DNA from: Spirochaetota bacterium
Lineage (GTDB): Bacteria; Spirochaetota; UBA4802; UB4802
DNA: 44,030 nucleotides
Direction of reading: 5' to 3'
NCBI GenBank assembly: GCA_040756435.1
Contig: JBFLZD010000031.1
Coordinates: forward strand, 1-44,030
Shown here: positions 6,251-27,316 of the stretch, in pieces
How positions within the stretch are numbered: the first letter of the stretch is position 1
How the letters are laid out: the number at the start of each line of letters is the position of its first letter
Translations under genes and position numbers: made by a program
Notes under the pieces: generated by a model
Database searches by the model: none
What the model was told of the DNA's origin: nothing
Seen by the model: only the letters and a program-made list of their open reading frames with translations

Positions 6251-6562
6251 TCATTGTAAAATCCCTTTTTCTTTTAACGCCTTATATTTTGCTGATCTAT
6301 CAATATACTGAGTATGGAGTAGCTTATGAGCTAAATGAGAATTGGGATGCTCTAAGTATTCCTTATATATTGCTTTTATTTGGGGATTATCTTGTGATTT
6401 TCTCAGTGGCATTGATTTATCATAGGTATATACGCCTTTTGTCCTTTTATTTTTTATGGTAGTGTAGGTGGAAGCAAAGATGTTTGAAATATATTTAAAA
6501 CTTGATATCAAAACTATACTCGTCGTTGATAAAAATAAAAATGATCTTCTGGTACGCTTCAT
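6251..6562 (-). CDS. Periplasmic [FeFe] hydrogenase small subunit with Tat signal
   Basis: A 103-residue protein with two recognisable parts. The N-terminus MKRTRRSFLF contains a twin-arginine export motif followed by a hydrophobic stretch. The C-terminal half (from MPLRKSQDNPQIKAIYKEY to LLHTQY) matches the iron-hydrogenase small-subunit domain. In the known two-subunit periplasmic enzymes (Desulfovibrio HydAB) the small subunit carries the Tat signal and wraps around the large subunit. The start is placed at the ATG at 6562, eight bases after GAGAGGTG; an in-frame GTG at 6571 falls inside that ribosome site and is less likely. It lies 31 bp downstream of the large subunit in the same operon. 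Confidence 0.88.
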   Translation of the reverse strand: MKRTRRSFLFLSTTSIVLISSFKYISNIFASTYTTIKNKRTKGVYTYDKSMPLRKSQDNPQIKAIYKEYLEHPNSHLAHKLLHTQYIDRSAKYKALKEKGILQ

Positions 6563-6593
6563 ATTTATCACCTCTCAATTAAAATAAAAATTT

Positions 6594-7859
6594 TTATAGA
6601 ATAAACACATTGTCAGGATCCAATGGTTGACCACCGCCGTTGACACATCCGCCAGGGCAGGTCATCACTTCGATGAAATGATATTTTGATGTACCATTTT
6701 TAACCATTTCAATAACAGGTTTTGCATTTTTTAACCCAGATATGACACATACATTGATTGTTAACCCGCCCACAGGTATTGATGCTTCTCGTATTCCTTG
6801 TTCACCTCGTACAGATTCAAATTCAATGTTTGTAAGTTGCTTCCCCGTTACCGCTTCATAGGCAAACCTCAATGCAGCTTCCATAACGCCACCCGTAACG
6901 CCAAATATGGTAGCAGCACCGGTAGAAATACCCAACACTGGATCAGGATTTTCATGGGATATGTTTTTTAAATCAATGTTATTCTTTTTAAACATATAAG
7001 CAAGCTCACGAGTATTAATTGTAGCGTCTATATCTCTATAACCGCTTGCATTGAGTTCAGGACGCAACCCTTCAAATTTTTTTGCAATACAGGGCATGAT
7101 AGAAACTGTATAAATATCTTTTGAATCCTTTTTGATCTTTTTCGCTCCATATGTTTTTGCTAATGCACTTAACATACCAATTGGTGATTTGCAGGTAGAT
7201 AAATGCGGAATTAATTCTGGATAAAATGTTTCTACATATTTAATCCATCCAGGACAGCATGAAGTAAACTGTGGTAATGGTTTATCCACTTTTTTGGTAA
7301 TGCGCTGAATAAGCTCAGTACCTTCTTCAATTATAGTAAGATCTGCTGCAAATTCATTATCCCATACAATATCAAAACCTAATTGCTTTAAAGCTGCCGT
7401 CATTTGTGGCATTGCATTGTATCCCGGTTCAAAACCAAAAGGCTCGCCAATTGCATATCGTACCGCTGGAGCAACCATTGCCACAACGGTTTTTCTTTTG
7501 TCATTAATTGCATCTTCTATATCAGTAATAAATGATACCTGTTCTTGTATAGCACCATATGGGCAATTGACAAGACATTGACCGCAATTAACGCACCCAT
7601 CATAGTGATGAACAGTATGTTTGCTTGTGCTCTTCTTATCTTTGCCATCAATAATACCCGTGGGGCATACTTCTGTACACGTATGGCAGGCATGACACCT
7701 GCTTTGATCAACCTGTACGTAAAACGTTTTATCATATTCTTCAACCGATGGCACATAGTTCTTTATGGTAATTCCTTCGGTTTTAGAATATCTGTTACAG
7801 GATGCTAACAGCGGTAAAAGAAATGTACTTTTTAGAAGATCTTTTCTGGTGACATTCAT
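6594..7859 (-). CDS. [FeFe] hydrogenase large (catalytic) subunit, periplasmic type, with lipobox-like signal
   Basis: H-cluster hydrogenase of 421 residues in the two-subunit class. Two [4Fe-4S] ferredoxin motifs are C55/C58/C61/C65 and C89/C92/C95/C99. H-cluster motifs are TSCCPGW (C201), MPCIAKK (C257) and MTCPGGCVNGGGQP (C401, C405). TSCCPGW is the Desulfovibrio-like form. The enzyme lacks the small-subunit domain, which the adjacent gene supplies. Unusually, it begins TRKDLLKSTFLLPLLASC: a Tat-like (T-R-K) n-region, a hydrophobic core and an L-A-S-C21 lipobox. This implies export and lipid anchoring of the large subunit itself. AAGGAGG precedes the ATG. Its physiological role is likely H2 oxidation or evolution at the outer face of the cytoplasmic membrane. 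Confidence 0.93.
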   Translation of the reverse strand: MNVTRKDLLKSTFLLPLLASCNRYSKTEGITIKNYVPSVEEYDKTFYVQVDQSRCHACHTCTEVCPTGIIDGKDKKSTSKHTVHHYDGCVNCGQCLVNCPYGAIQEQVSFITDIEDAINDKRKTVVAMVAPAVRYAIGEPFGFEPGYNAMPQMTAALKQLGFDIVWDNEFAADLTIIEEGTELIQRITKKVDKPLPQFTSCCPGWIKYVETFYPELIPHLSTCKSPIGMLSALAKTYGAKKIKKDSKDIYTVSIMPCIAKKFEGLRPELNASGYRDIDATINTRELAYMFKKNNIDLKNISHENPDPVLGISTGAATIFGVTGGVMEAALRFAYEAVTGKQLTNIEFESVRGEQGIREASIPVGGLTINVCVISGLKNAKPVIEMVKNGTSKYHFIEVMTCPGGCVNGGGQPLDPDNVFIL

Positions 7860-8067: not shown

Positions 8068-8517
8068 ATGGTTGATTCTATATTACAGGAATTAAATCCT
8101 CAAAATAAGGATTTATTGCTTGTTGCATTACAGAAGTTATCTGTACACGGCAGGCTTGATGAACATTTGTTAAGCAAGGTAGCACAACATTTCAATGTTT
8201 CACCTGCAAAGGTATATGGTGTGGCATCGTTTTATTCATTTATACCATTAGTATCAACTGGTAGATATGTTATTCGTATATGTAAAAGTATATCATGTGA
8301 TATGGCAAATAAAGATGAGATAGTAACTGCAATAAAAGAATATTTAGGTATTGATAGTGGGCAAACTACCAGCGATAAGATGTTTACATTGCTTGAAACA
8401 AATTGTCTTGGATGGTGTGATGAAGCACCTGCAATGATTATCAATGATGTTCCTTATACCCATCTTACAAATGAAAAAGTAATAGCAATTCTCACGAAAC
8501 TTAAAGAGGAACAATAA
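8068..8517 (+). CDS. hydC: NAD-linked [FeFe] hydrogenase subunit HydC (NuoE-like [2Fe-2S] protein)
   Basis: A 149-residue thioredoxin-like ferredoxin of the NuoE/HndA/HydC family, which passes electrons between the flavin subunit and the other clusters. All four [2Fe-2S] ligands are present: C72-x4-C77 in CKSISC and C113-x3-C117 in CLGWC. An N-terminal helical part (1-60) ends with GVASFYSF, as in NuoE. It is the first gene of an operon continuing through a receiver protein, hydB and hydA, with short gaps. Contrast the NuoE-like domain of HoxF in this window, which lacks most of these cysteines. Confidence 0.9.
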   Translation: MVDSILQELNPQNKDLLLVALQKLSVHGRLDEHLLSKVAQHFNVSPAKVYGVASFYSFIPLVSTGRYVIRICKSISCDMANKDEIVTAIKEYLGIDSGQTTSDKMFTLLETNCLGWCDEAPAMIINDVPYTHLTNEKVIAILTKLKEEQ

Positions 8518-8546: not shown

Positions 8547-8897
8547 ATGAAAAAAGTTTTAATTGTAGATGACGATCAGGATGTTGTTGTTTCGTTAAAA
8601 GCAATACTTGCATCAAAAGGATATACCGTATACGAAGCATATAGCGGAAAAGAGGGCATTGAAGTATTTAAAAATGTTAAGCCAGATGTTGTACTTTTAG
8701 ACTTAATGATGGAACAGGTGGATACAGGGATTACTGTGTGTAAACAGATGCGTGCTGAAAATGCCAATGTAAAAATCTATATGTTGAGTGCAGTTGGTGA
8801 TGAGGCTGCATCCACTATTGATGTGGCAAAAGCTGGCTTTAATGGAGCTATCTCCAAGCCTATTTCACCTGATGAATTATTGCGCCTGGTGGAGTAA
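8547..8897 (+). CDS. Stand-alone CheY-like receiver protein inside the hydrogenase operon
   Basis: A 116-residue single receiver domain with no output domain. Acidic pocket D8/D9, phospho-acceptor D52, S81 and K104 are all present, so it should be phosphorylatable. The loop after the acceptor reads DLMMEQVDTG, with glutamate where most receivers have proline. It lies between hydC and hydB, 29 bp after hydC and 12 bp before hydB, whose ribosome site follows its stop directly. It must therefore be co-expressed with the hydrogenase. A paralogue with the same MMExxDxG loop closes the hox operon (21083-21457). No kinase is adjacent. A direct regulatory or assembly role for the hydrogenase is inference. 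Confidence 0.9.
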   Translation: MKKVLIVDDDQDVVVSLKAILASKGYTVYEAYSGKEGIEVFKNVKPDVVLLDLMMEQVDTGITVCKQMRAENANVKIYMLSAVGDEAASTIDVAKAGFNGAISKPISPDELLRLVE

Positions 8898-8909
8898 AGG
8901 AGGATAACA

Positions 8910-10079
8910 ATGGAGAATACTCTTGAAAAATTGCAGGAAAAATTTTCGTTAATTTTTTCGGTTTGCGATCATAGCAAAATAGTCAACGCAATTGTAAAAA
9001 AAAGTCCTGAAGAAATTATAGATGAAATTACAAAATCGGGATTGCGAGGAAGAGGTGGGGCAGGATTCCCAACCGGTATAAAATGGAAAGCAGCAAAAGA
9101 GGCTGAATCACATCAAAAATATGTGATATGTAATGCTGATGAGGGAGAACCCGGAACTTTTAAAGATAGAAAAATATTACGGGATCACAGCGAACTTGTG
9201 CTTTTGGGTATGTGTGCAGCTGCAAAGGCTATTGGTGCTACAACAGGATATATATATCTACGTGGCGAGTATGCATTTCTAAAACCACAAATAGAAGAAA
9301 AAATCAAAGAATATAATGAATTATTTAAAAAGCATTCTATTGATTTTACAGTCCGTCTGAGGATGGGCAGTGGCGCATATGTATGTGGTGAGGAAAGTGC
9401 ACTTATTGAATCAATAGAAGGTAATCGTGGGGAACCTCGTAATAAACCACCATTTCCGGTTACCAGAGGTTTATTTAATTTTCCAACAGTTGTGAACAAT
9501 GTAGAAACATTAGCCTATGCAGCAATCATTGTAGATGAAGGCGCTTCAAAATTTGCATCAATAGGAACTAAAGATTCAAAAGGATCAAAGATGTTCTCCA
9601 TTTCGGGTGATGCAAAAATAAAAGGTGTCTTTGAACTCCCATTGGGTATGAAGGTACAAGAACTTGTGGATTTATTTTCTGATGGCGATACAAAGGCTGT
9701 TCAGATAGGAGGAGCATCGGGATTTTGTGTTCCGCGCAAACTATTCAAAGAAAGGATTATTGGCTTTGAAGGCATACCAACCGGGGGTTCTATAATTTTG
9801 TTTAATAGCTCACGATCAATGTATAGGGTTTTGATGAATTATCTTGATTTCTTTAAAGAGGAGTCATGCGGACAGTGTACACCGTGCAGGGTAGGTTGTC
9901 AGCAACTGTATTTAGGGATAAAGGCAATTCACAGTGGCCAGAAACCATTACAGTATTTACATGAATTACAACGGCTGGCCAGTACTATGGCAATAACGGC
10001 AAAATGTGGTTTGGGGCAATCGGTTGCCAATCCTTTTATTTCGATTAGTGAACATTTCAAAGAAGAAATTTGTTACTGA
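8910..10079 (+). CDS. hydB: NAD-linked [FeFe] hydrogenase subunit HydB (NuoF-like flavoprotein, short form)
   Basis: FMN- and NAD(H)-binding subunit of 389 residues. The FMN/NAD loop GLRGRGGAGFPTG is at about residues 44-56 and ICNADEGEPGTF follows near 80. The N3-type [4Fe-4S] cluster is C320/C323/C326 with C366. The protein consists of the NuoF core only. It lacks both the N-terminal thioredoxin-like [2Fe-2S] domain and the C-terminal two-[4Fe-4S] ferredoxin domain found in Thermotoga-type electron-bifurcating HydB/HndC (about 600 residues). The reading frame is intact and ends normally, so this is a natural short form, not a truncation. It is preceded by AAAGGAGG and followed after 15 bp by hydA. 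Confidence 0.92.
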   Translation: MENTLEKLQEKFSLIFSVCDHSKIVNAIVKKSPEEIIDEITKSGLRGRGGAGFPTGIKWKAAKEAESHQKYVICNADEGEPGTFKDRKILRDHSELVLLGMCAAAKAIGATTGYIYLRGEYAFLKPQIEEKIKEYNELFKKHSIDFTVRLRMGSGAYVCGEESALIESIEGNRGEPRNKPPFPVTRGLFNFPTVVNNVETLAYAAIIVDEGASKFASIGTKDSKGSKMFSISGDAKIKGVFELPLGMKVQELVDLFSDGDTKAVQIGGASGFCVPRKLFKERIIGFEGIPTGGSIILFNSSRSMYRVLMNYLDFFKEESCGQCTPCRVGCQQLYLGIKAIHSGQKPLQYLHELQRLASTMAITAKCGLGQSVANPFISISEHFKEEICY

Positions 10080-10094
10080 TAGGGAGGTACTGTA

Positions 10095-11867
10095 ATGAAA
10101 ACAGTTATGCTGACAATAAACGATAAAAAATTTGAAGTACCAGACAATTATACTGTGCTACAGGCTGCAAAAGAAATGGGTATACAAATACCTACTCTTT
10201 GCTATCATGACGATCTTTGTGTGGCAGGTAATTGCAGAGTATGCCTGGTGGAACAAAAAGGTATGCGAGCACTACAGACTTCATGCACGCTTCAGGTAGC
10301 GCCGGGTATGACTATTTATACCAATACCAGACGTGTACGGGAGGTCCGCAAAACAATTATTGAGCTACTTTTGTCAGAACATGCTGATAACTGTACTTCG
10401 TGCTATAAAAATGGAAATTGTGAGCTACAGCAGCTTGCAAAAGAATATATGGTAGATGGCAATAAATTTATTAAAACAATACGGTATTGGAATATTGATG
10501 ATTCTTCGCCATCAATAATTAAAGACGATAGTAAATGTATAAAATGTACTCGCTGTGTGCGTACCTGTGAGCAGTTACAGAGTGTATCAGCGTTATATAG
10601 TGCTCATAAAGGTGATCACACAAAAATAGCAACTTTTTTTGATAAGCCGCTGGATGAAGTAATATGCACTAATTGTGGCCAGTGTATAAACAGATGTCCT
10701 ACGGGGGCTTTGATTGAAAAAAATTATATTCAAGAAGTATGGGATGCTCTGGATAATGAGGAAAAATTTGTAGTGGTACAAACAGCTCCTGCTGTGCGAG
10801 TAAGTATTGCAGAGGCTCTGGGCATAGGGGTTGGTAAAATCAGCACAGGAAAACTGGTAGCAGCACTGCGAAGACTTGGATTTGATGCAGTGCTCGATAC
10901 TGATTTTACCGCTGATCTAACTATAATTGAAGAAGGAAATGAATTTTTGCACCGTGTTACCAAGGCTATTCGTGATAAGCAGAATGTTGCGTTGCCAATG
11001 ACAACATCGTGCTCACCTGGCTGGATAAAATTTATAGAGCACAAATATCCTGATTTGTTAGCAAATGTATCAACGTGTAAGTCCCCACAGCAGATGTTTG
11101 GTGCTCTTGCCAAAACATTTTATGCACAAAAACGAAATATCGACCCTGCAAGGATGGTTACAGTTTCAATAATGCCCTGTACTGCAAAAAAATATGAGGC
11201 AAACAGACCCGAGATGTATTCAAGTGGCTATAAGGATGTTGATTATGTATTAACTACCCGTGAATTGGCTCTAATGATACAGCAAGCAGGTATTGACTTT
11301 GAGAAACTTCCTGAAGAAGATTATGATTCTATAATGGGTAAGTCCACTGGTGCGGCAGTAATTTTTGGAGCTACCGGTGGTGTTATGGAAGCGGCGTTGC
11401 GTACGGTTTATGAGATAGTTACTGGTAAAGAGGTTCCGTTTCAAAAATTAAATATCACACCGGTAAGAGGGATGGAAGGTGTTCGTGCTGCGTCAATTAC
11501 TATTAATGGAACAAAACCTGAATATAGCTTTCTTGATGGGGTAACTGTAAAAGTGGCAGTTGCTCATGGTCTTGCTAATGCTGCACGCCTTATGGATGAG
11601 GTACGAGCAGGGAAAAGTTCATACCACTTTATTGAAATAATGGCCTGTCCCGGTGGCTGCATAGGCGGAGGAGGACAGCCAATACCAACTAACCTTGATA
11701 TACGTAAAAAGCGCGCTGAGGCAATTTATGAAGCTGATATGCAATTGCCAATACGGAAATCACATGAAAATCCTGAAATTAAGCAAATTTATCAAGAGTT
11801 CCTTAAAGAGCCTTTGGGTCATTTATCACATACGCTATTACATACTCACTATAGCAAGCGGCTGTAA
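10095..11867 (+). CDS. hydA: NAD-linked [FeFe] hydrogenase catalytic subunit HydA
   Basis: A 590-residue H-cluster subunit. In order it carries a plant-type [2Fe-2S] domain (C36, C47, C50, C64), a His-Cys3 [4Fe-4S] site (H96, C100, C103, C109) and two ferredoxin clusters (C148/C151/C154/C158 and C191/C194/C197/C201). The H-cluster domain has TSCSPGW (C306), MPCTAKK and MACPGGCIGGGGQP. A fused small-subunit domain, LPIRKSHENPEIKQIY through LLHTHY, ends the protein. There is no C-terminal extra [2Fe-2S] domain as in Thermotoga HydA. It has no export signal, so it acts in the cytoplasm with HydB and HydC, coupling NAD(H) to H2. GGGAGG precedes the start and a terminator follows at 11896. Confidence 0.95.
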   Translation: MKTVMLTINDKKFEVPDNYTVLQAAKEMGIQIPTLCYHDDLCVAGNCRVCLVEQKGMRALQTSCTLQVAPGMTIYTNTRRVREVRKTIIELLLSEHADNCTSCYKNGNCELQQLAKEYMVDGNKFIKTIRYWNIDDSSPSIIKDDSKCIKCTRCVRTCEQLQSVSALYSAHKGDHTKIATFFDKPLDEVICTNCGQCINRCPTGALIEKNYIQEVWDALDNEEKFVVVQTAPAVRVSIAEALGIGVGKISTGKLVAALRRLGFDAVLDTDFTADLTIIEEGNEFLHRVTKAIRDKQNVALPMTTSCSPGWIKFIEHKYPDLLANVSTCKSPQQMFGALAKTFYAQKRNIDPARMVTVSIMPCTAKKYEANRPEMYSSGYKDVDYVLTTRELALMIQQAGIDFEKLPEEDYDSIMGKSTGAAVIFGATGGVMEAALRTVYEIVTGKEVPFQKLNITPVRGMEGVRAASITINGTKPEYSFLDGVTVKVAVAHGLANAARLMDEVRAGKSSYHFIEIMACPGGCIGGGGQPIPTNLDIRKKRAEAIYEADMQLPIRKSHENPEIKQIYQEFLKEPLGHLSHTLLHTHYSKRL

Positions 11868-11895: not shown

Positions 11896-11929
11896 GGGGT
11901 GTGAACAATCATGCCCCTTCTTTTTTTAT
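11896..11929 (+). terminator. Rho-independent terminator after hydA
   Basis: GGGGTGTG (11896-11903) pairs with CATGCCCC (11910-11917), using two G-U pairs, over a six-base loop. TTCTTTTTTTAT follows. It separates the hydC-receiver-hydB-hydA unit from hydGEF, which therefore probably has its own promoter in the next 45 bp (TATAAT at about 11944). Confidence 0.8.
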
Positions 11930-11972: not shown

Positions 11973-13361
11973 ATGGAAACCTATATCGATGAACAATGTA
12001 TAGTGAATACTTTACAAAATGTTACAGTAGATAGTTATGCCATAAAAGAAATACTGGCAAAAGCGAAGGAATTAAAGGGCCTGGATAGTAAAGATGTTGC
12101 TATATTAAGTGCAATCTCCACTGAAATGGCAAATGAGTTGTATGAAACAGCCGATTATATCAAAAAGCAGATATATGGGAATAGAATAGTTCTTTTTGCA
12201 CCACTATATATTTCAAATTACTGTGCAAATGATTGTGTGTACTGCGCTTTTAGAGCAAGCAACAGAACAATAAAGCGAAATTATTTAACAATGGAACAAA
12301 TAAAATGCGAAGTGGAAACTCTTGTAGAGCAGGGTCATAAACGGCTTCTTCTGGTAGCAGGTGAAGCATATCCGCCGTATAGCAGTAATAAAAGGGGTTT
12401 ACAGTATATACTTGATGCAATAGAAAATGTATATAGCGTTAAAAAACGTAATGGAGAGATTCGCCGTTTAAATGTGAATATTGCTCCGTTAACAGTTGAA
12501 GAGTTTAAAGAACTTAAAGCAGCAAAAATTGGTACCTACCAGTTATTTCAAGAAACCTACCATAAAGACACATATAGTAAAGTACATCCAAAAGGGAAAA
12601 AAGCTGATTACCTATGGCGTCTTTTTGCTATGGACAGAGCAATGGAAGCAGGTATTGATGATGTGGGTATTGGTGTGCTTTTTGGTTTATTTGACTGGAA
12701 GTTTGAGCTTTTAGCAATGATGCAGCACATACAGCATTTAGAAAAAAATTTTGGGGTTGGTCCCCATACCATAAGTGTGCCCCGTATTGAGCCAGCCATC
12801 GATACCCCATTTTCACAGAATCCACCATATAGAGTAAGTGATGATGATTTCTTAAAAATAATAGCAATTCTACGGTGTGCGGTACCATATACCGGTATTA
12901 TATTATCAACTCGTGAAGATCCACTTATGCGAAAAAAAGCATTGATGTTAGGTGTATCGCAAATTTCAGCAGGAAGTAAAACTAATCCTGGTGGATATTC
13001 GCTCAATGATGATGTTGATGCACAGTTTAGCATTGGTGATCATAGGAGCCTGGATGAAGTGATCTATGATTTAATTTCAATGGGTTTTATACCTTCATTT
13101 TGTACTGCCTGTTACAGATTAGGCAGGACAGGGGAAGACTTTATGGATAAAGCAAAACCGGGACTTATCAAGCAGTTTTGTACTCCCAATGGAATGGCAA
13201 CGTTTATGGAATATCTATTGGATTATGCCAGTGAAAAGACACAATCAAAAGGAATGGCGTTAATACAATCAATGATGCAGCAAATGGAACCACCTATTGC
13301 TGCACGAACACAAAAGCTATTACAGCAAATAAAGAAAGGCAAACGGGATGTCTATTGTTAG
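11973..13361 (+). CDS. hydG: [FeFe] hydrogenase H-cluster maturase HydG (radical SAM tyrosine lyase)
   Basis: HydG cleaves tyrosine to supply CO and CN- as an Fe(CO)(CN) unit for the H-cluster. The radical-SAM triad is C84-x3-C88-x2-C91 in CANDCVYC. The C-terminal auxiliary cluster motif CTAC-x22-C (C377, C380, C403) has exactly the spacing diagnostic of HydG and separates it from ThiH, which lacks it. At 462 residues it is of normal length. GAGGAG lies upstream. It overlaps hydE by 14 bp, forming a tight hydG-hydE-hydF operon directly after one [FeFe] hydrogenase and close to the second; it presumably serves both. Confidence 0.96.
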   Translation: METYIDEQCIVNTLQNVTVDSYAIKEILAKAKELKGLDSKDVAILSAISTEMANELYETADYIKKQIYGNRIVLFAPLYISNYCANDCVYCAFRASNRTIKRNYLTMEQIKCEVETLVEQGHKRLLLVAGEAYPPYSSNKRGLQYILDAIENVYSVKKRNGEIRRLNVNIAPLTVEEFKELKAAKIGTYQLFQETYHKDTYSKVHPKGKKADYLWRLFAMDRAMEAGIDDVGIGVLFGLFDWKFELLAMMQHIQHLEKNFGVGPHTISVPRIEPAIDTPFSQNPPYRVSDDDFLKIIAILRCAVPYTGIILSTREDPLMRKKALMLGVSQISAGSKTNPGGYSLNDDVDAQFSIGDHRSLDEVIYDLISMGFIPSFCTACYRLGRTGEDFMDKAKPGLIKQFCTPNGMATFMEYLLDYASEKTQSKGMALIQSMMQQMEPPIAARTQKLLQQIKKGKRDVYC

Positions 13362-14436
13362 TAGTGTGAATGCAATTTGTACAAAAGACAATGTTGATAT
13401 AAATGATTGTGAATTTATATTGTCTATTACTGACAGCGATGCGGTTAATGAAATCTTTACGATTGCACGCAGTATAACAGATACAATTTCAGGAAGGAAA
13501 ATATATTTACGTGGATTGATTGAAGTTTCTAATATATGCAGAAAAAACTGCTATTACTGTGGCATACGAAGAGATAATGCAAAGATACAACGGTATACCT
13601 TATCGTTTGATGAAATAGCATTGGCTATTCAGTATTGTTATGAAGCGGGTTTTGGTTCAATTGTGTTACAGGCAGGAGAACAATCGGGAGAAAATTTTAT
13701 ATCACTTATTACTAGATCTATTCAATATGCAAAAAGAATTAGCAATGGAAAGTTAGGCATTACTTTGTCATTGGGTGAACAAACGGAAGACACCTACAGA
13801 AAGTGGTTTGAAGCCGGTGCTGATAGGTATTTACTGAGAATTGAAACATCAGATCCTTTTTTATATGCAATGCTGCATCCCAAAGACCATTCGTTTAATA
13901 AACGTCTTGATTGTCTTTATACATTACAAAAGATTGGATATCAGGTGGGGACGGGAGTGATGATAGGTGTTCCCGGGCAAACAATCACTCATCTGGCACA
14001 AGATGTTCTTTTTTTCAAAAGGATGGATGTGGATATGATTGGTATGGGACCTTATGTAGTGCATCCAGATACTCCAACAGGAACTATCGCACAAAATCAT
14101 TATAATAAAACAAAAATAGTGCAACGTACGTTACTTATGATTGCATTGACCCGCATAGTATGCAGGGATGTGAATATTGCTTCCACGACTGCACTTGAAG
14201 TGCTTGATGGTACTGCAGTGCTTAATAGTTTTTATGCAGGAGCCAATGTCAAGATGATAAATGTTACTCCTGAGCATTATAAACGCTACTACGATTTGTA
14301 CCAGGGTAAAACTGAAGCAGGGGTAGCTGCTCATCAACAATTTGAACAACTTATAACAAAACACGGATTTGCAATTGCATATTACTCAAAAGGTGATCCC
14401 GTACATTTTTATACCAGGAGAGAACAATGTCGGTAG
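13348..14436 (+). CDS. hydE: [FeFe] hydrogenase H-cluster maturase HydE (radical SAM)
   Basis: Radical-SAM enzyme of the BioB-like group required to build the diiron subcluster on the HydF scaffold. The cluster triad is C64-x3-C68-x2-C71 in CRKNCYYC, followed by GIRRDN, which is characteristic of HydE. The 362-residue length is typical. The start lies within the end of hydG, and the stop overlaps the start of hydF by 10 bp, so the three maturases are translationally coupled. Confidence 0.95.
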   Translation: MSIVSSVNAICTKDNVDINDCEFILSITDSDAVNEIFTIARSITDTISGRKIYLRGLIEVSNICRKNCYYCGIRRDNAKIQRYTLSFDEIALAIQYCYEAGFGSIVLQAGEQSGENFISLITRSIQYAKRISNGKLGITLSLGEQTEDTYRKWFEAGADRYLLRIETSDPFLYAMLHPKDHSFNKRLDCLYTLQKIGYQVGTGVMIGVPGQTITHLAQDVLFFKRMDVDMIGMGPYVVHPDTPTGTIAQNHYNKTKIVQRTLLMIALTRIVCRDVNIASTTALEVLDGTAVLNSFYAGANVKMINVTPEHYKRYYDLYQGKTEAGVAAHQQFEQLITKHGFAIAYYSKGDPVHFYTRREQCR

Positions 14437-15695
14437 TTGTGGAGCGAGATATTATTGGCATTTTTGGATGTATGAACGCCGGTAAAAGCTCGGTGTTAAA
14501 TTGTATTGTGCAATATGAAGCATCTATAGTTGATTCTACACCTGGGACAACAGCTGACACAAAAGAAGTATTATGTGAGATTCACGAGATTGGGCCAGTA
14601 AAACTTCTTGATACAGCAGGTATTGATGAGGGTGGTTTACTTGGTGAAAAAAAGCGAAAAAAGGTTTATGACAATTTAAAGGAGTGTGACTGTGTAATAC
14701 TGGTTATTGATCCTTCGCGTAATCATTATGAGTACGAAAAAAAATTGATTGATGATGCACGCAACCTGCATAAGCAGATTCTTATTGTGTTCAATATTTT
14801 TACTGGTGAGAGTAGAGAAAAAATAAATGATATACGTAACACAATTCCAGCGCTAAAATTTTATGATTGGATTGCAATAAAAGCAAATGATACATCATAC
14901 AGAAATGCCCTGATCCAGTTTATTGTTACTCACTATAGACCTAAATCAAAAGAAGCTCCTTTAATTCCTTTTTTAAAAAAGGATAATTTTTATGTACTCA
15001 TAATACCTATGGATGAAGAAACACCAAAGGGCAGGTATTTACGACCACAGGCGATGGTGGAAGAATATATTACGCGGAATTGGTCATATCCTGTTTCATT
15101 TCGTTTGAATTTAAAAAAAGCCCGTGGAACACAAAAAGAAAAAGATGAAGAATATTCACGATTTGTAAAATTTTTATCATCAATAAAACACAAACCTCAT
15201 TGTATATTTACTGATTCTCAGGCTATAGATGTTATGGGCAAATGGTGTCCTGATGATATATTGCTCACTACGTTCTCTATAATAATGATTAATTATCAAA
15301 GTGATGGTCGTCTTAAAAAATTTATTGAAGGTGTACTGGTTTTAGAATCGTTGCCTGAGAATGCATCAGTTTTGATTGCTGAAGCCTGTAATCATAATAG
15401 AATTGCTGAGGATATTGGTACAGTACAGATACCTAAAATGTTGTATAACAAATATCCCAATATAAAAGTTGACCATGCATTGGGTAAGGTATATGTGGAC
15501 GTGGAAGATATTAAAAAATATTCACTTATTATTCACTGTGGTGGCTGTATGATATCAAGGCAGGCAATGATTGCCCGATTACATGATTATGAAATTGCAG
15601 GAGTACCGTATACTAATTATGGAATTTTTTTATCGTACATGCAAGGTAAAAAAATATTTGAGAAAGTTTTAACTCCCTGGTTATTGAATAGTTAA
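14427..15695 (+). CDS. hydF: [FeFe] hydrogenase maturation GTPase HydF (H-cluster scaffold)
   Basis: Scaffold GTPase on which the 2Fe subcluster is assembled before transfer to apo-hydrogenase. The Walker A loop GCMNAGKS is at residues 14-21 and the switch sequence DSTPGTTAD follows. The C-terminal cluster-binding motif is C321-x-H323-x46-H370-C371-x2-C374 (CNH then HCGGC), within the HydF consensus spacing. At 422 residues it has the usual GTPase, dimerisation and cluster domains. It is the last gene of the maturation operon; 328 bp of AT-rich sequence follow before hoxF. Confidence 0.96.
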   Translation: MSVVVERDIIGIFGCMNAGKSSVLNCIVQYEASIVDSTPGTTADTKEVLCEIHEIGPVKLLDTAGIDEGGLLGEKKRKKVYDNLKECDCVILVIDPSRNHYEYEKKLIDDARNLHKQILIVFNIFTGESREKINDIRNTIPALKFYDWIAIKANDTSYRNALIQFIVTHYRPKSKEAPLIPFLKKDNFYVLIIPMDEETPKGRYLRPQAMVEEYITRNWSYPVSFRLNLKKARGTQKEKDEEYSRFVKFLSSIKHKPHCIFTDSQAIDVMGKWCPDDILLTTFSIIMINYQSDGRLKKFIEGVLVLESLPENASVLIAEACNHNRIAEDIGTVQIPKMLYNKYPNIKVDHALGKVYVDVEDIKKYSLIIHCGGCMISRQAMIARLHDYEIAGVPYTNYGIFLSYMQGKKIFEKVLTPWLLNS

Positions 15696-16023: not shown

Positions 16024-17832
16024 ATGGCAAGCTTAGATGCGGTTGTTAAACAGGTTGTTTCAAAGTACAAAAACGACAAGACCCGTTTAATGGACATCAT
16101 CACAGATGTGCAGTCCGAATTAGGGTGTGTGTCGGATGAGGCTGTTAGTCAGATTGCTAAGCTACTTGATTGTTCAAAGGTTGATGTTGAAGGAGTGATA
16201 ACATTTTACCACTTCTTTACAAAAACCCCAAGAGGCAAGTACACAGTATATCTGAATAACAGTGCGGTTGCTAATATGAAAGGCCGAGCTGCAATTGCAA
16301 AAGCATTTGAAGATGCTGTTGGCTGCAGCTTTGGAAGAACAACTTCTGATGGCATTATTGGATTGTACGATACTTCTTGTATCGGAATGAACGATCAGGA
16401 GCCTGCTGCTATCATTAATGGTATTGTTTTTACAAACCTTACTCAGGATAAGGTAAAAGAGATAGTAGCCGGGATGAAAGCCGGAAAAGATGTGAAGGAT
16501 CTTGTAAAAGAGTACGGTGATGGTGCAAATCAGTCCGATTTGATCCGTGCAATGGTAAAGAATAATATTATGCGTAAAGGCCCGGTACTCTTTGCACCGT
16601 ATGATCAAGGTTCTGCAATTAAGGCTGCACTTTCTAAGAAACCGGAAGATGTCATTGAAGAAGTAAAAATTGCTAATCTGCGAGGAAGAGGCGGTGCGGG
16701 TTTCCCAACTGGTATGAAATGGGAATTTTGTAGAAAGGCTGAAGGTGCAAAGCATTATGTTATTTGCAACGCAGACGAAGGTGAACCGGGAACTTTCAAG
16801 GACCGCGTAATTTTAACCGAGTTGCCTCATATGTTATTTGAAGGCATGGCTATTGCAGGTTATGCCGTAGGGGCCAATGAAGGTATTATATACCTTAGAG
16901 CTGAATACCTGTATTTGAAGAAATACCTTGAAAAGGTACTGGAAGATTTACGTGCCAAAAATATTCTTGGCAAAAACATTGCAGGCAAAGGATTTGATTT
17001 TGATATCAGAATACAGATGGGTGCGGGAGCGTATGTATGCGGTGAGGAATCAGCACTCATTGAATCAGCAGAAGGCAAGCGTGGTGAACCACGTAATCGT
17101 CCACCATTTCCGGTACAAAAAGGTTACCTGGGTTATCCTACAACGGTAAATAATGTTGAAACATTGTGTTGTGCAGTTCGCATCATGTTAGAAGGCGGTG
17201 AATGGTTTGCCAAGATGGGTACTGCACAGTCTAAAGGAACAAAATTATTGAGTGTTTCTGGGGATTGTCAGAATCCAGGCATATACGAGGTTGAATTTGG
17301 CACAACTGTCAATACATTATTAGAAATGGTTGGTGGAAGAAATGCAAAGGCTGTTCAGGTTGGTGGTCCATCAGGTACATGCATTGGCAAGAAAGATTTT
17401 GGACGAAGAATCTGCTTTGATGATCTTGCTACTGGTGGTTCAATTATTATCATTGGCCCGGATCGCGATCTTTTTGAAATAGTCCATAATTTCATGGATT
17501 TCTTTGTGGAAGAATCCTGCGGCTGGTGTGTGCCCTGTAGAGCAGGTAATGTTATATTAAAGCAAAAATTAGAAAAGATAATGTCAGGGAAGGCATCCAC
17601 AAAAGATATTCAGGAACTTGAAGATTGGTGTAAGATAGTGAAAGCTACCAGCCGTTGCGGTTTGGGACAAACATCACCAAATCCAATATATACAACTATC
17701 CAGAATTTCAGAGAAATGTATGAAGCAAAAGTAAAGAAGGATACTGATTATGTATCTACATTCGATCTTTTAGCTGCTGTTGAAGAATCATGTAAAGCAG
17801 CAGGAAGAATTCCAAAGGTAGAGGAACACTAA
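16024..17832 (+). CDS. hoxF: NAD-reducing [NiFe] hydrogenase diaphorase subunit HoxF
   Basis: A 602-residue fusion of a NuoE-like N-terminal domain (about 1-165) and a NuoF-like domain. The NuoF part has NLRGRGGAGFPTG (FMN), ICNADEGEPGTF and MGAGAYVCGEES, and the [4Fe-4S] ligands ESCGWCVPC plus RCGLGQ. The NuoE-like domain keeps its fold signatures (FYHFF, GLYDTSCIGMNDQEPA) but has lost the first two cluster cysteines and one of the last pair, so it probably binds no [2Fe-2S]. This matches the soluble NAD-hydrogenase HoxF of Cupriavidus in both length and motif. It binds FMN and NAD(H) and forms the diaphorase with HoxU. First gene of hoxFUYHW. Confidence 0.94.
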   Translation: MASLDAVVKQVVSKYKNDKTRLMDIITDVQSELGCVSDEAVSQIAKLLDCSKVDVEGVITFYHFFTKTPRGKYTVYLNNSAVANMKGRAAIAKAFEDAVGCSFGRTTSDGIIGLYDTSCIGMNDQEPAAIINGIVFTNLTQDKVKEIVAGMKAGKDVKDLVKEYGDGANQSDLIRAMVKNNIMRKGPVLFAPYDQGSAIKAALSKKPEDVIEEVKIANLRGRGGAGFPTGMKWEFCRKAEGAKHYVICNADEGEPGTFKDRVILTELPHMLFEGMAIAGYAVGANEGIIYLRAEYLYLKKYLEKVLEDLRAKNILGKNIAGKGFDFDIRIQMGAGAYVCGEESALIESAEGKRGEPRNRPPFPVQKGYLGYPTTVNNVETLCCAVRIMLEGGEWFAKMGTAQSKGTKLLSVSGDCQNPGIYEVEFGTTVNTLLEMVGGRNAKAVQVGGPSGTCIGKKDFGRRICFDDLATGGSIIIIGPDRDLFEIVHNFMDFFVEESCGWCVPCRAGNVILKQKLEKIMSGKASTKDIQELEDWCKIVKATSRCGLGQTSPNPIYTTIQNFREMYEAKVKKDTDYVSTFDLLAAVEESCKAAGRIPKVEEH

Positions 17833-17833
17833 T

Positions 17834-18529
17834 ATGAGTACTATAAATTTTACAATAGACGGAAAATCATGTAAGGCTAAACCCGGCCAAACAATTGTTG
17901 AAGCAGCAAAGGATAATGGCATCTATATCCCAACATTATGCCATTTTGAAGGGTTGAAACCAGCTGGTACCTGCCGCATCTGTACGGTTAAAGTTGGTGG
18001 CAGGAATATGGCTGCATGTACAACACCGGTAACTGAAGGAATGGTAGTAGAAAACAAAACTGCTGATCTGGAAGATTATCGCAAAGCTATAATTGAAATG
18101 CTTTTTGTAGAAGGCAACCATATGTGCCCAACATGCGAAAAAAGCGGTAATTGCGAGTTACAGGCGTTAGGATACCGGTATTTGATGATGGCACCACGGT
18201 TTCCATTCCTTTTCCCCAAGCGAACACTTGATGCATCATTACCTAAGATTGTGATAGAACGAAATAGGTGTGTTCAGTGTTTACGTTGTGTGCGGGGTGT
18301 AACAACAGCTGATGGCAAGCGCATCTTTGGTGTTGTTAACAGGGGCGGCCATGTTGAAATTACGGTAGATAAGGATTTAACAGCAACCATGACCGATGAA
18401 ATGGCCCAGAAAGCAATGGATTTGTGCCCGGTTGGTGCTATATTGAAGAAAGAAGTTGGTTTTGCTATCCCAATTGGAAAGCGTAAATTTGATAGCAAGC
18501 CAATTGGCAGTGAAATTGAAAAAGCCTGA
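17834..18529 (+). CDS. hoxU: NAD-reducing [NiFe] hydrogenase diaphorase subunit HoxU
   Basis: A 231-residue electron-transfer subunit. Plant-type [2Fe-2S] ligands are C36, C47, C50 and C62. The H-x-C-x2-C-x5-C site is H96, C98, C101 and C107. A final [4Fe-4S] cluster uses C146, C149, C152 and C198 (LCPVGAIL). It is the short HoxU form, matching Cupriavidus-type soluble hydrogenase rather than the longer cyanobacterial HoxU. It begins one base after the hoxF stop, so translation is coupled. It bridges HoxF to the HoxYH hydrogenase module. Confidence 0.94.
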   Translation: MSTINFTIDGKSCKAKPGQTIVEAAKDNGIYIPTLCHFEGLKPAGTCRICTVKVGGRNMAACTTPVTEGMVVENKTADLEDYRKAIIEMLFVEGNHMCPTCEKSGNCELQALGYRYLMMAPRFPFLFPKRTLDASLPKIVIERNRCVQCLRCVRGVTTADGKRIFGVVNRGGHVEITVDKDLTATMTDEMAQKAMDLCPVGAILKKEVGFAIPIGKRKFDSKPIGSEIEKA

Positions 18530-18557
18530 TTTTAATGAAGATCTATGGAGGAATACA

Positions 18558-19097
18558 ATGAGTAAACCAGTTGTCGCAACTGCTTCACTGGCAGGATGTT
18601 TTGGATGCCATATGTCCATTCTGGACATTGATGATAGAATTTTAAAGTTAATTGAATTGGTTGAATTTAACAAGTCACCAATTGATGATATTAAAACGTT
18701 CACCAAACAGTGTGATATTGGATTAATAGAAGGCGGATGCTGTAATAGTGAAAATGTTGAAAACTTGAAGTTGTTCCGCAAAAACTGTAAAATACTTATA
18801 TCTGTTGGTGAATGCGCAATTATGGGTGGATTACCAGCAATGCGTAATGGTATCCCCGTAAAAGAATGCTTAGAAGAAGCATACTTGAAATGCCCAACAG
18901 TAGATGATAATATTATTCCCAATGATGATGAATTACCAATGATTTTGGACAGGGTATATCCATGTCATGAGATAGTTAAAATAGATTATTTTCTTCCCGG
19001 ATGTCCACCACGAGCAGATTTAATCTGGGAGGCATTGGTAGCACTTCTTACCGGTAAAGAGTTAGAATTACCGTACGAAGTTGTTAAGTTTGACTAA
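18558..19097 (+). CDS. hoxY: NAD-reducing [NiFe] hydrogenase small subunit HoxY
   Basis: Small subunit (179 residues) carrying the proximal [4Fe-4S] cluster next to the NiFe site. Ligand motifs are CFGCHMS (C14, C17), GECAIMGG (C86) and PGCPPRAD (C149). There is no Tat signal, as expected for a cytoplasmic group 3 enzyme. The frame is open back to 18456, overlapping hoxU, but the ATG at 18558 follows GGAGG and gives the canonical N-terminus, so I chose it. It is encoded between hoxU and hoxH, as in known hox operons. Confidence 0.93.
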   Translation: MSKPVVATASLAGCFGCHMSILDIDDRILKLIELVEFNKSPIDDIKTFTKQCDIGLIEGGCCNSENVENLKLFRKNCKILISVGECAIMGGLPAMRNGIPVKECLEEAYLKCPTVDDNIIPNDDELPMILDRVYPCHEIVKIDYFLPGCPPRADLIWEALVALLTGKELELPYEVVKFD

Positions 19098-19121
19098 TTT
19101 TGTTTTAGGAGATTGAAGCAT

Positions 19122-20570
19122 ATGGCTAGAAAAATAACGATAGAACCTGTAACAAGGGTTGAAGGTCATGGTAAAGTGACCATTCAGCTTGATCCTCAGA
19201 ACAATGTACTTGATTCACGTTTTCACATTGTTGAGTTTAGAGGATTTGAACGATTTGTTCAGGGCAGACCATACTGGGAAGCACCGGTTCTGGTGCAGCG
19301 CCTTTGTGGAATTTGCCCTGTTAGCCATCATTTAGCAGCAGCTAAAGCGATGGATGTTATTGTAGGTGTTGGCCCTGATGGATTAACACCCACTGCAGAA
19401 AAAATGCGTAGGCTCATGCATTATGGACAGATGTTCCAGTCCCATGCATTGCATTTCTTCCATTTAGTATCACCTGATTTATTGTTTGGAGTTGATGCAG
19501 ATCCGGCAATACGCAATGTCATTGGTGTTGCTATGAAGTTCCCTGATTTAGCAGTACAGGGTGTTATGATGCGTAAATTTGGCCAGGAGATAATCAGAGC
19601 AACAGCAGGTAAAAAGATACATGGTACCGGAGCAATACCTGGTGGCATTAACAAGAACTTAAGTGTTCAGGAAAGGGATGAGTTCCTCAAAGGTGCTGAT
19701 CCAATGAACATTAAAAAGATGATAGAATGGGCACAGGCAGCGCTAAATCTTTTTAAAGAATATCATAAGAAGAATAAAGATTTTATCGATGGCTTTGCAG
19801 CATTCCCATCAAATCATTTGAGCCTTGTTCGCAAAGACGGTGCACTGGATCTTTACCATGGAGTCCTGAGAGCAGTTGACGCTAATGGCAAGAAGATATT
19901 AAATGATGTTGATTATCAGGATTATCTCAGGTATGTAGGTGAGGAAGTCAGATCCTGGAGTTATATGAAGTTCCCATATCTCAAGTCATTGGGCAAAAAG
20001 GATGGATGGTACCGGGTAGGGCCGTTGGCACGACTCAATACTGCTGATTTTATCCCAACACCGCTGGCACAGAAAGAATTTGAAGAATTCAAAGCATATA
20101 CAAATGGCAAACCCAATAATATGTCAATGCATATGCACTGGGCACGTTTAATTGAATTATTGCACTCAGCAGAAATGATTGAGCAGCTTTTAAATGACCC
20201 TGATCTGCAGGGTGACAAGCTTGTTGCTAAGGGTACAAAGGTTAAAGAAGGTGTTGGATTAATTGAAGCACCACGAGGTACATTGTTCCATCACTATCGC
20301 ATAAATGATAATGACCAGATTGAAATGGCTAATCTTATTGTTTCCACTACCAATAATAATGAGCCAATGAACAGAGCAGTTAACTGGGTAGCGGTTAATC
20401 AGATCAGTGGCAAAAAGGAAATTACTGAAGGCATGCTCAATGCAGTTGAAGTTGCAATACGTGCCTATGACCCATGTTTAAGCTGTGCAACACATGCTAT
20501 TGGGAAGATGCCTCTGGAAGTTACATTGGTTGATGCTGAAGGCAATGTTGTAGATCAGAAAAGGAAGTAA
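19122..20570 (+). CDS. hoxH: NAD-reducing [NiFe] hydrogenase large subunit HoxH
   Basis: Catalytic subunit of 482 residues. The L1 motif is RLCGICPVSHH (C62, C65) and the L2 motif is DPCLSCATH (C452, C455, H458); these four cysteines bind the NiFe(CN)2CO centre. Twenty-four residues follow H458, so a C-terminal peptide should be removed by the endopeptidase encoded next. An AGGAGA ribosome site lies nine bases before the ATG at 19122; the frame's TTG at 19113 is too close to that site. Together with HoxF, HoxU and HoxY this indicates a group 3d bidirectional NAD(H)-linked hydrogenase. Nickel-site assembly would also need hyp genes, which are not in this window. Confidence 0.96.
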   Translation: MARKITIEPVTRVEGHGKVTIQLDPQNNVLDSRFHIVEFRGFERFVQGRPYWEAPVLVQRLCGICPVSHHLAAAKAMDVIVGVGPDGLTPTAEKMRRLMHYGQMFQSHALHFFHLVSPDLLFGVDADPAIRNVIGVAMKFPDLAVQGVMMRKFGQEIIRATAGKKIHGTGAIPGGINKNLSVQERDEFLKGADPMNIKKMIEWAQAALNLFKEYHKKNKDFIDGFAAFPSNHLSLVRKDGALDLYHGVLRAVDANGKKILNDVDYQDYLRYVGEEVRSWSYMKFPYLKSLGKKDGWYRVGPLARLNTADFIPTPLAQKEFEEFKAYTNGKPNNMSMHMHWARLIELLHSAEMIEQLLNDPDLQGDKLVAKGTKVKEGVGLIEAPRGTLFHHYRINDNDQIEMANLIVSTTNNNEPMNRAVNWVAVNQISGKKEITEGMLNAVEVAIRAYDPCLSCATHAIGKMPLEVTLVDAEGNVVDQKRK

Positions 20571-20572
20571 GC

Positions 20573-21055
20573 ATGCTGAATAATGTTAAGTGCCTGGTAT
20601 ATGGATATGGTAATCCTGGAAGACAGGATGATGGCCTGGGTGTGGAGCTGGCATTAAGGATTGAAAATGATGAACATTTGAGCAAGTATGTTGATGTGGA
20701 TTATAATTATCAACTCAACATTGAAGATGCATTAACCATTTCAGAATATGATCTGGTTATCTTTGCAGATGCGGCACTTAACATTGATAAATCGTATGAA
20801 TTAAATAAGATTCAGCCGGCACATACAATTACATTTACAACTCACGAATTGTCGGCTGAATCTATACTTGCACTTTGCCAGGATCTATATAATAAAAAAC
20901 CTGAATGCTATATGCTGGCAATCAGGGGCTATGAGTGGGAAATGGGGTTGCCTATGACCAGTAGGGCAAAGTGTAATTTAGATGATGCATATACATTTTT
21001 AACAGAATTCATTGAAAACCAATTTTCTCGCTGTATAGCGGGCAAAGGGATTTAA
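20573..21055 (+). CDS. hoxW: Hydrogenase maturation endopeptidase (HoxW-like, peptidase M52)
   Basis: A 160-residue nickel-dependent-specificity protease that clips the C-terminal tail of HoxH after nickel insertion. The family signature YGYGNPGRQDDGLG is near the N-terminus. By analogy with HybD-type proteases, metal-contact residues are D20, D66 (in FADAAL) and H91 (in THELSAES). It starts two bases after the hoxH stop. The 24-residue HoxH extension upstream is its expected substrate. Confidence 0.9.
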   Translation: MLNNVKCLVYGYGNPGRQDDGLGVELALRIENDEHLSKYVDVDYNYQLNIEDALTISEYDLVIFADAALNIDKSYELNKIQPAHTITFTTHELSAESILALCQDLYNKKPECYMLAIRGYEWEMGLPMTSRAKCNLDDAYTFLTEFIENQFSRCIAGKGI

Positions 21056-21082: not shown

Positions 21083-21457
21083 ATGGCAAATAAGAAAATT
21101 ATCTTAGTAATTGATGATGACCCGGATATTTTAGATTCTATCAAAGCTATTCTTTCAGCAAATGGATTTGATGTAGTTACTGCAATGAGTGGAAAAGAAG
21201 GTATTGACGCTGTTGCAAGCAGCAAGCCAGATCTCATTTTATGTGATATGATGATGGAAAGAATAGATGCAGGTACAAAAGTTGCCCAGGAAATTAAGAA
21301 AAGCAACCCTTCAATACCAATTTATCTTTTAAGCAGCATTGGTACGGCAACTGCAACTAATATTGAAATCGATAAGTTAGGTTTTAATGGTGTTTTCCAG
21401 AAACCGGTTAATCCGGATAATCTGGTGTCAACAATAAAGAAAGCACTTAATATGTAG
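21083..21457 (+). CDS. Stand-alone CheY-like receiver protein closing the hox operon
   Basis: A 124-residue single receiver domain: D11/D12 pocket, phospho-acceptor D55, S84 and K107. The post-acceptor loop is DMMMERIDAG, the same MMExxDxG form as the receiver in the hydCBA operon. The two share about two-fifths of their residues, including SGKEGI and GFNG-x3-KP-x2-PD. The start is the ATG at 21083 after AGGAG; an in-frame GTG at 21074 overlaps that site. It lies 27 bp after hoxW and before a strong terminator, so it belongs to the hox transcript. No DNA-binding domain is present, so it probably acts by protein contact. Confidence 0.88.
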   Translation: MANKKIILVIDDDPDILDSIKAILSANGFDVVTAMSGKEGIDAVASSKPDLILCDMMMERIDAGTKVAQEIKKSNPSIPIYLLSSIGTATATNIEIDKLGFNGVFQKPVNPDNLVSTIKKALNM

Positions 21458-21560
21458 TAACTATCGCATAACATAGTGTTTAAAAATTATTTTTATTATG
21501 GTATTAAAAAAGCGGGTTATCATAAAACCCGCTTTTTTATTTTTATGTGCGATAGTTACT
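21456..21560. repeat. 12-bp inverted repeat flanking the hox terminator
   Basis: AGTAACTATCGC (21456-21467) and GCGATAGTTACT (21549-21560) are perfect reverse complements 81 bp apart. They straddle the terminator at 21505-21538. Both arms contain the octamer GCGATAGT that recurs throughout the window. The left arm overlaps the stop codon of the receiver gene. Confidence 0.85.
21505..21538. terminator. Rho-independent terminator at the end of the hox operon
   Basis: AAAAAAGCGGGTT (21505-21517) pairs perfectly with AACCCGCTTTTTT (21526-21538) around an eight-base loop. The A- and T-tracts make it able to work on both strands, serving hox on the plus strand and possibly pgk read-through on the minus strand. 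Confidence 0.93.
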
Positions 21561-27200: not shown

Positions 27201-27316
27201 CAATTTCGTATTCAATTATAAAGAGTTACGATGGAGAAATAGAAATAGAAAGCACAAGAGGTGTGGGAACAGAAGTTATTATATTATTGCCATTTTATAA
27301 AAAAAACGTAATATAA
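24290..27316 (+). CDS. Multi-PAS sensor histidine kinase (orphan)
   Basis: A 1008-residue sensor kinase. About five PAS-like segments run from the N-terminus (near 5-105, 130-230, 240-345, 350-470 and 475-595). The second has a cysteine-rich ending, CPDC, typical of some PAS families. A GAF-like region (about 600-765) and then the kinase core follow. The phospho-acceptor is H789 in VAHEINNP. The ATPase has the N box NILTNAEDAV, the G1 box DTGIGI, the F box LFEPFF and the G2 box GTGLGLSIS. No membrane helix is obvious, so it is likely cytosolic. There is no adjacent regulator gene. Base composition is noticeably more AT-rich than its neighbours. There is no clear ribosome site at the ATG. The two CheY-like proteins of the hydrogenase operons are possible but unproven partners. 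Confidence 0.9.
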   Translation: MFNQYKYLDMIETPIIVSDNSGRIKYANLSILHNSKLLLHTENLKKNRNIFDIFLLNKFQQEEVYKVLNNKVQENKIVTDTFELHISRINKNRILLQIKNKQIQQLKYSDLTQKNEDNVKFSSAPFFSAFDLLDDLIHITDKKGLIVFANKAIKKLFGDIRGQYCYEVFAGENDYCPDCKLSLVLDGNTIRYEVKLNKNNQYYDVINSPFVDFDGNVYKISIMRNLEEIVEKQNTLVLFQNAINRSRNLVCFANENGEILYANDTFIKYFGENYKEENNILRLMNYSKDDVYQSSDNKEIKITIGNNEIYFKVFIYPIQSLSNETIFVFIASDITDLKKLENKIAIEKNYFQSIIDNTIDGFFVIDKNQKIIDCNPSFQKMFHITPDSFATVTLAELFDPTYKREFEKKINYLKKSHISQITEVSSTNNGFKNYIISLNYLSTSESENEHYYGFVKDITDITRLHKIIENERNYNRRIIETVTLGFVVINEFGEIIDYNNAFLHLIERTGQNVKGEMFSSYIKPVNKQNMEDLTNSSPDMLRDFEAIIITADNQEKNVIVSMSKLYDILGNYLGNFAFIRDITHQKKIENEIVQQSHQIIELVNSLTKFTASVVRIEDIDNLLLQIHSFINSILNPDYLEILVFSIDRYISHKYINNEHIITNTEISYKTSFIIQKLTKSKTMMFITNPTIELNDEDQLLFSNVMRFKNIIFTPIFIGKDLKMIILVAFNKEVKFINNIIITILTSVSNLIAIAFEKITSIAEQVKMKEALDRYEKLVAIGRIIAGVAHEINNPLSIMQLDISELDQKLDQGDYDQEIKDIIRSLLEEIQRISNIVKQLKDYAKPAALNDDIINLNEIFRTYPLKILTKNIQKKGIPITINVPKQKIYVKMPLTRLIQVIMNILTNAEDAVVEKGEGSIHIDISPEQRGENIFARLSVKDTGIGIHEENKHLLFEPFFTTKPKEGTGLGLSISYSIIKSYDGEIEIESTRGVGTEVIILLPFYKKNVI

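Follow-up and report, generated by a model that had tools for sequence, protein, structure and literature searches.

To our knowledge, the control of NAD-linked and bifurcating hydrogenases after their synthesis is largely an open question, as are the targets of the sensory [FeFe] hydrogenase kinases. Direct action of a receiver on an enzyme has been proposed in Myxococcus xanthus, where the single-domain regulator EpsW, once phosphorylated, is reported to turn on an enzyme through direct contact (PMC12802240). FixT acts as an inhibitor of its own kinase and has four cysteines that bind an Fe-S cluster (PMC7078487). Sensory [FeFe] hydrogenases of group C3 carry a histidine kinase domain, as in BfuT, which is encoded beside BfuABC in Hydrogenedentota (PMC11406978); this is the closest case that the literature offered, and the text of that paper makes no mention of response regulators. 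A full-text search of open papers, with subscription literature outside its scope, did not turn up any account of receivers encoded in hox or hyd operons, and the receiver family reported here is apparently undescribed so far.

Receivers in two hydrogenase operons

The window, that is, the whole stretch of 44,030 nucleotides analysed, is one contig (C31) of a 3.6-Mb genome and has a GC content of 35%; genes are on its forward strand unless stated otherwise. The first operon begins with hydC (8068-8517; PF01257, 136 bits), which encodes a NuoE-like 2Fe-2S thioredoxin-like subunit. It is followed after 29 nt by an intact 116-aa open reading frame, R1 (8547-8897), preceded by an AGGAG ribosome-binding site. 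Twelve nucleotides downstream of R1 lies hydB (8910-10079), encoding a NuoF-like diaphorase subunit of 389 aa (PF01512 and PF10589), and then hydA (10095-11867), an [FeFe] hydrogenase matched by the group A6 NADH-dependent model (NF040763, 887 bits against a cut-off of 765). A terminator-like hairpin (11896-11917) closes hydC-R1-hydB-hydA. The H-cluster maturase genes hydG, hydE and hydF follow at 11973-15695 (starts at 11973, 13348 and 14427), hydG being identified by TIGR03955 (545 bits) and the other two by reading of the translations and homologues elsewhere. Divergent from hydC, at 6251-7859 on the reverse strand, lies a split, exported-looking [FeFe] hydrogenase made up of a catalytic protein of 421 aa and a small subunit of 106 aa that has an RR signal, an arrangement also kept beside hydABC at three other loci (L050, L051 and L247).

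The second operon comprises a hoxEF fusion with NuoE and NuoF diaphorase parts (16024-17832; PF01257, PF01512 and PF10589), hoxU (17834-18529; Pfam), hoxY (18546-19097; PF01058, 98 bits), hoxH (19119-20570), encoding a [NiFe] large subunit whose group 3d type was read from the hoxEFUYH gene order and not from a classifier, and the maturation protease gene hoxW (20573-21055; TIGR00072, 66 bits against a cut-off of 47). Its last gene encodes a second receiver, R2. The mechanically called frame of R2 opens at GTG 21074, and the true start is likely ATG 21083 (MANKK...), as judged from an upstream AGGAG and the starts of orthologues, which places the gene at 21083-21457. A strong terminator-like hairpin follows (21505-21539). 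The reading frames, ribosome-binding sites and hairpins thus bear out the sequence-only reading, which had placed one receiver between hydC and hydB and the other at the end of the hox operon.

In both proteins, the Pfam Response_reg domain spans the full length (PF00072, 94 bits in R1 and 83 bits in R2). It is the only match in R1, whereas in R2 a second receiver-like family also matches an overlapping region below threshold; the Pfam scan revealed no output domain in either, as previously noted. The two share 43% of their residues, in agreement with the earlier estimate of about two-fifths, and both contain exactly the loop D-x-M-M-E-x-x-D-x-G that had drawn attention to them (DLMMEQVDTG in R1, DMMMERIDAG in R2). 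The acidic triad D8, D9 and D10 of R1, the acceptor D52, S81 and K104 are invariant across an alignment of 23 sequences, and R1 and R2 therefore look phosphorylatable, going by these conserved residues. With a receiver along the whole length, no output domain and conserved phosphorylation residues, both correspond to single-domain response regulators. The AlphaFold2 model of R1 is a canonical (beta-alpha)5 receiver fold (mean pLDDT 88), and this ordinary fold gives no clue to a partner. A search of solved structures with a profile of the R1/R2 family returned general receivers only, Spo0F among them, and R1 and R2 score 62 and 63 bits against NCBIfam NF045717 (DVU0259/DivK), below its curated cut-off of 160.

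A receiver family linked to hydrogen and formate enzymes

Among 36 receiver matches in the genome, the best paralogue of R1 is R2 (111 bits), followed by one at 62 bits, and R1 is in turn the best paralogue of R2. In 39 relatives, homologues fall into a strong class of 88-200 bits and a weak class mostly below 70 bits, with one at 74. In a phylogenetic tree, the family stands apart from the seven other includable receivers of the window's genome (support 99/92), with R1 and R2 in sister branches.

The order hoxEF-hoxU-hoxY-hoxH-hoxW-receiver recurs in family after family of the Spirochaetota order to which the window belongs. An R2 orthologue ends 25 of the 26 testable hox operons of this order, the window included (testable meaning not cut by a contig end), and typically lies 11-38 bp after hoxW. 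Hox operons ending in a receiver are also found in Planctomycetota, Myxococcota, Acidobacteriota and Latescibacterota; named public genomes with the arrangement belong to Phycisphaeraceae, Polyangiaceae, Acidobacteria, Latescibacterota and other Spirochaetales. Hox operons without a receiver in cis occur in G162 and G104 outside the order and in G207, the single exception within it, so the enzyme can do without the receiver. The idea that the receiver is an obligate structural subunit is weakened by these operons and by hydABC operons that likewise have none.

In three genomes of one family, hoxW and the receiver form a single in-frame open reading frame (L255:7575-8963, L258:6163-7080 and L259:8089-8934). 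This is the only natural in-frame fusion that we saw; it involves no diaphorase subunit, and no direct fusion of a diaphorase with a receiver was present among the fetched loci. Other members adjoin hypF/hypB (L058), hydE (L253) or fdhE-fdhD together with a kinase gene (L250). Such neighbours would be expected if the receiver helped in assembly or maturation, together with HoxW or the Hyp/HydEF machinery, and did not act on the finished enzyme. We consider this highly improbable, given that the [FeFe] operon of R1 has no such protease and that G207, G162 and G104 retain hoxW and hox with no receiver in cis.

The arrangement hydC-receiver-hydB-hydA also occurs in G004, G028, G036 and G193, and members from other branches are neighbours of hydABC in Ignavibacteria (Ignavibacteriota), Acidobacteria (Acidobacteriota) and Vicinamibacterales. 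Further branches lie with NAD-linked formate dehydrogenases with NuoEF, with FNR-hoxY-hoxH operons resembling group 3b and with operons of group 4. On the tree, whose alignment has few columns and leaves many forks open, at least four changes of the hydABC label are required, which indicates repeated entry of receivers into hydABC operons; on this tree, the hydABC linkage outside the Spirochaetota order is a separate recruitment. A third family receiver in the window's genome, with the variant loop DVMMETDTAG, comes directly after the NuoB-like gene in a group-4 hydrogenase operon on contig C2 (L089:9823-19689, reverse strand), in which an FNR-type subunit and a protease gene precede the receiver, a kinase gene with a membrane Cache sensor and a single receiver.

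The sequence-only reading had also raised the possibility that the loop is widespread in receivers with no tie to hydrogenase or diaphorase genes, which is not what we found. A degenerate DNA motif for the loop had 64 sites in 41 of 393 Spirochaetota genomes, against one site for a reversed control, and is thus not a product of chance. Eighty loci of named public genomes were then fetched by similarity alone and split by the strict motif: genes for H2 or formate enzymes lie within 6 kb at 14 of the 16 strict-motif loci and at 14 of the 64 others, several of which belong to the family as variants (Fisher p 2e-6). The gap to the next paralogue, the tree and these context statistics led us to reject the view that R1 and R2 are generic receivers. 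Much of the linkage within the order is vertical, and single-domain receivers are common, both of which would suit an ordinary CheY-like protein with no specific partner, linked to these operons by descent or hitch-hiking only. That explanation is scarcely credible in view of the linkage repeated in several phyla, the separate recruitments to hydABC, the enrichment of the motif near these genes and the matched kinase clade described below. Judged from gene context, the link of the R1/R2 family to predicted H2 and formate enzymes in several phyla is well supported.

Diaphorases with NuoE/NuoF-type subunits adjoin family members in hox operons, in hydABC operons and in formate dehydrogenase operons with NuoEF (L066 and L082), and NuoEF is the commonest neighbour that family members have in common. 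At L076 (9626-11747), a solitary NuoEF diaphorase gene is followed by a family receiver, with a Cache kinase and a receiver-kinase hybrid adjacent; HoxH had no match in that genome at the threshold used. The proposal that a NuoE/NuoF-type diaphorase is the partner is supported in part, in that the strict motif is tied to hydrogenase and diaphorase genes, but it does not cover the whole family, which occurs in maturation contexts and in group 4 and group 3b operons as well, where the diaphorase is of the FNR type and not NuoE/NuoF. Some members adjoin maturation, transport or kinase genes, and some have no diaphorase nearby (e.g., L248 and L253). The NAD-linked formate dehydrogenase operon at L066:2736-9636 contains, besides the family receiver, genes for a formate-type transporter and a ferritin-like protein, and a possible selenocysteine codon apparently divides its catalytic gene in two.

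Candidate kinases of the receivers

Three proteins with an Fe_hyd_lg_C domain are encoded in the window's genome, namely hydA, the small, divergent hydA and, on contig C50, a protein of 659 aa. The last has the domain plan of a sensory [FeFe] hydrogenase kinase, with Fer4, Fe_hyd_lg_C (163 bits), FeS, HisKA (57 bits) and HATPase (101 bits) domains, and inspection of its translation by eye revealed the cysteines of the three H-cluster motifs (TSCP, GPC and CCNGC). It is an orphan (L233:7135-9114, reverse strand), in trans to R1 and R2. In G035 and G188, hydEFG genes lie near a kinase of this hydrogenase-like type, and HydABC matches are absent there. The nearest match to the core of the C50 kinase is the membrane Cache kinase encoded inside the group-4 operon on C2, with 64% identity over the core and 80% over the phospho-acceptor (His-acceptor) domain, against at most 42% over that domain for the other kinases of the genome that were compared.

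The same type of kinase recurs next to family receivers elsewhere. Eighteen kinases are encoded within 3.5 kb of family receivers, and 15 of them belong to this linked type (51-80%); they come from several phyla, with examples in Planctomycetota and Ignavibacteriota, and include both types of sensor. The remaining three represent one generic PAS kinase of the window's genus. In the window, this PAS kinase (24290-27316) is the nearest kinase in cis, kept in the genus and encoded 2.8 kb downstream of R2 as a separate unit; it was set aside as a partner on account of its generic phospho-acceptor domain, which is 39% identical to the linked type. The earlier statement that neither receiver has a neighbouring kinase falls short, since the likely kinases exist in trans and the presence of the receiver follows them. 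At L236:9591-11999, a family receiver adjoins a gene that unites a histidine kinase domain with a pyridine-nucleotide disulphide oxidoreductase and a rhodanese.

Co-occurrence was counted in 46 genomes of the Spirochaetota order. Two-by-two counts were 30/3/3/10 for the receiver with the Cache kinase (p 1.6e-5), 29/4/1/12 for the receiver with hox (p 5e-7) and 6/1/2/37 for the R1 type with the hydrogenase-like kinase (p 2e-5), all p-values ignoring relatedness. The Cache kinase is present in all 21 receiver-positive genomes that are at least 90% complete. A receiver accompanies hydABC in five of five genomes where a kinase is present and in none of four where it is absent; the latter (G010, G007, G016 and G020) have neither kinase. 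G207, only 73% complete, has hox and neither receiver nor kinase, and the receiver is kept in four hox-less genomes, all of which have the kinase. The presence of the receiver thus goes with both kinase and hydrogenase. Part of this co-occurrence may be due to lineage, since the HydABC enzymes that have a receiver in this order are all close to one another, with HydA at least 70% identical. That the receiver follows the kinase and persists without hox suggests that these are signalling proteins and not obligate subunits. On sequence grounds, the predicted pairing of the receiver family with this kinase type is well supported.

Two other outputs of such a pairing were weighed. The receivers could be phosphorelay intermediates, loaded by the linked kinases, with phosphate moving on through a phosphotransfer protein or REC-HisKA-HATPase hybrids until it reaches a distant regulator that binds DNA; the output would be hydrogenase expression. 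Hybrids of this kind accompany the kinases at L069, L076, L093, L101 and L138, and the family profile retrieved Spo0F, a stand-alone phosphorelay intermediate, among its general receiver matches. The scanned partner proteins of the linked kinases are receivers or REC-HisKA-HATPase hybrids, and none has a DNA-binding domain in the modules examined; moreover, each enzyme has its own receiver copy within or at the end of its structural operon, whereas a shared relay could do without separate copies. We therefore regard a relay as rather unlikely. The view that the receivers are not transcription regulators agrees with the kinase modules examined and is qualified by the share of probability that a relay to transcription retains.

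Alternatively, the receivers might act as phosphate sinks or feedback inhibitors of the kinases that report the amount of enzyme. Their expression is coupled to the enzyme operon, and inhibition of a kinase by a single-domain receiver has a precedent in FixT (PMC7078487). The four-cysteine Fe-S motif of FixT is nevertheless absent from the translations of R1 and R2, and in the hox operons of the order the receivers are well conserved in the alpha4 segment and in beta5, beyond what would be expected of a pure sink. This explanation appears improbable.

Proposed mechanism

We propose, with roughly even confidence, that R1, R2 and their relatives are kinase-controlled local receivers of NAD-linked H2 and formate enzymes, acting post-translationally on their own enzyme. 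Each receiver would serve the H2 or formate enzyme whose operon contains its gene and would be phosphorylated by a dedicated histidine-kinase clade. This clade would combine one phospho-acceptor domain with different sensors, either a hydrogenase-like Fe-S/H-cluster domain, as in the C50 kinase, or a membrane Cache domain, as in the C2 kinase. The phosphorylated receiver would then act locally at the protein level, most probably by docking on the electron-transfer module linked to NAD(P) or on its assembly, and the H2 or redox state, as the presumed signal, would set the activity or direction of each enzyme. A local protein-level output is favoured because the scanned kinase partners lack DNA-binding domains and each enzyme operon has one receiver. 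A putative direct contact of the receiver with the diaphorase is plausible. More tentatively, and with less than even confidence, the receivers may be viewed as subunits that regulate NAD-linked hydrogenases and formate dehydrogenases in several phyla and can themselves be switched, served by one kinase clade with interchangeable sensors that include a putatively H2-sensing hydrogenase-like domain.

The hydrogenase-like kinase and the receivers in the operons of working enzymes form a concrete, testable pair. The arrangement suggests that enzymes are switched through phosphorylation, not only through gene expression, in several bacterial phyla. If phosphorylated receivers tune diaphorase activity, hydrogen metabolism would be under phosphorylation control, with possible uses in fermentation and H2 production.

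Comparison with known systems

The C50 kinase resembles BfuT and group C3 in domain plan, and genes of its type also adjoin HydABC in other genomes; unlike BfuT, it is an orphan in trans in the window's genome. FixT is likewise a single-domain receiver, in its case within a redox/oxygen circuit, and R1 and R2 differ from it in having one cysteine each. With Spo0F, DivK and CheY, R1 and R2 share a receiver-only composition, the acidic triad, the acceptor Asp, the Ser/Thr and Lys residues and, in the model, the (beta-alpha)5 fold, but they have Glu where Pro is usually found, four positions past the acceptor Asp, and are embedded in operons of H2 and formate enzymes. EpsW, which acts on a phosphoglycosyl transferase and belongs to a chemosensory system (PMC12802240), is similar as a stand-alone receiver with proposed direct action on an enzyme, an action that in R1 and R2 is putative; in contrast to EpsW, their candidate targets are NAD-linked hydrogenases and formate dehydrogenase, and their candidate kinases are soluble Fe-S or membrane Cache proteins.
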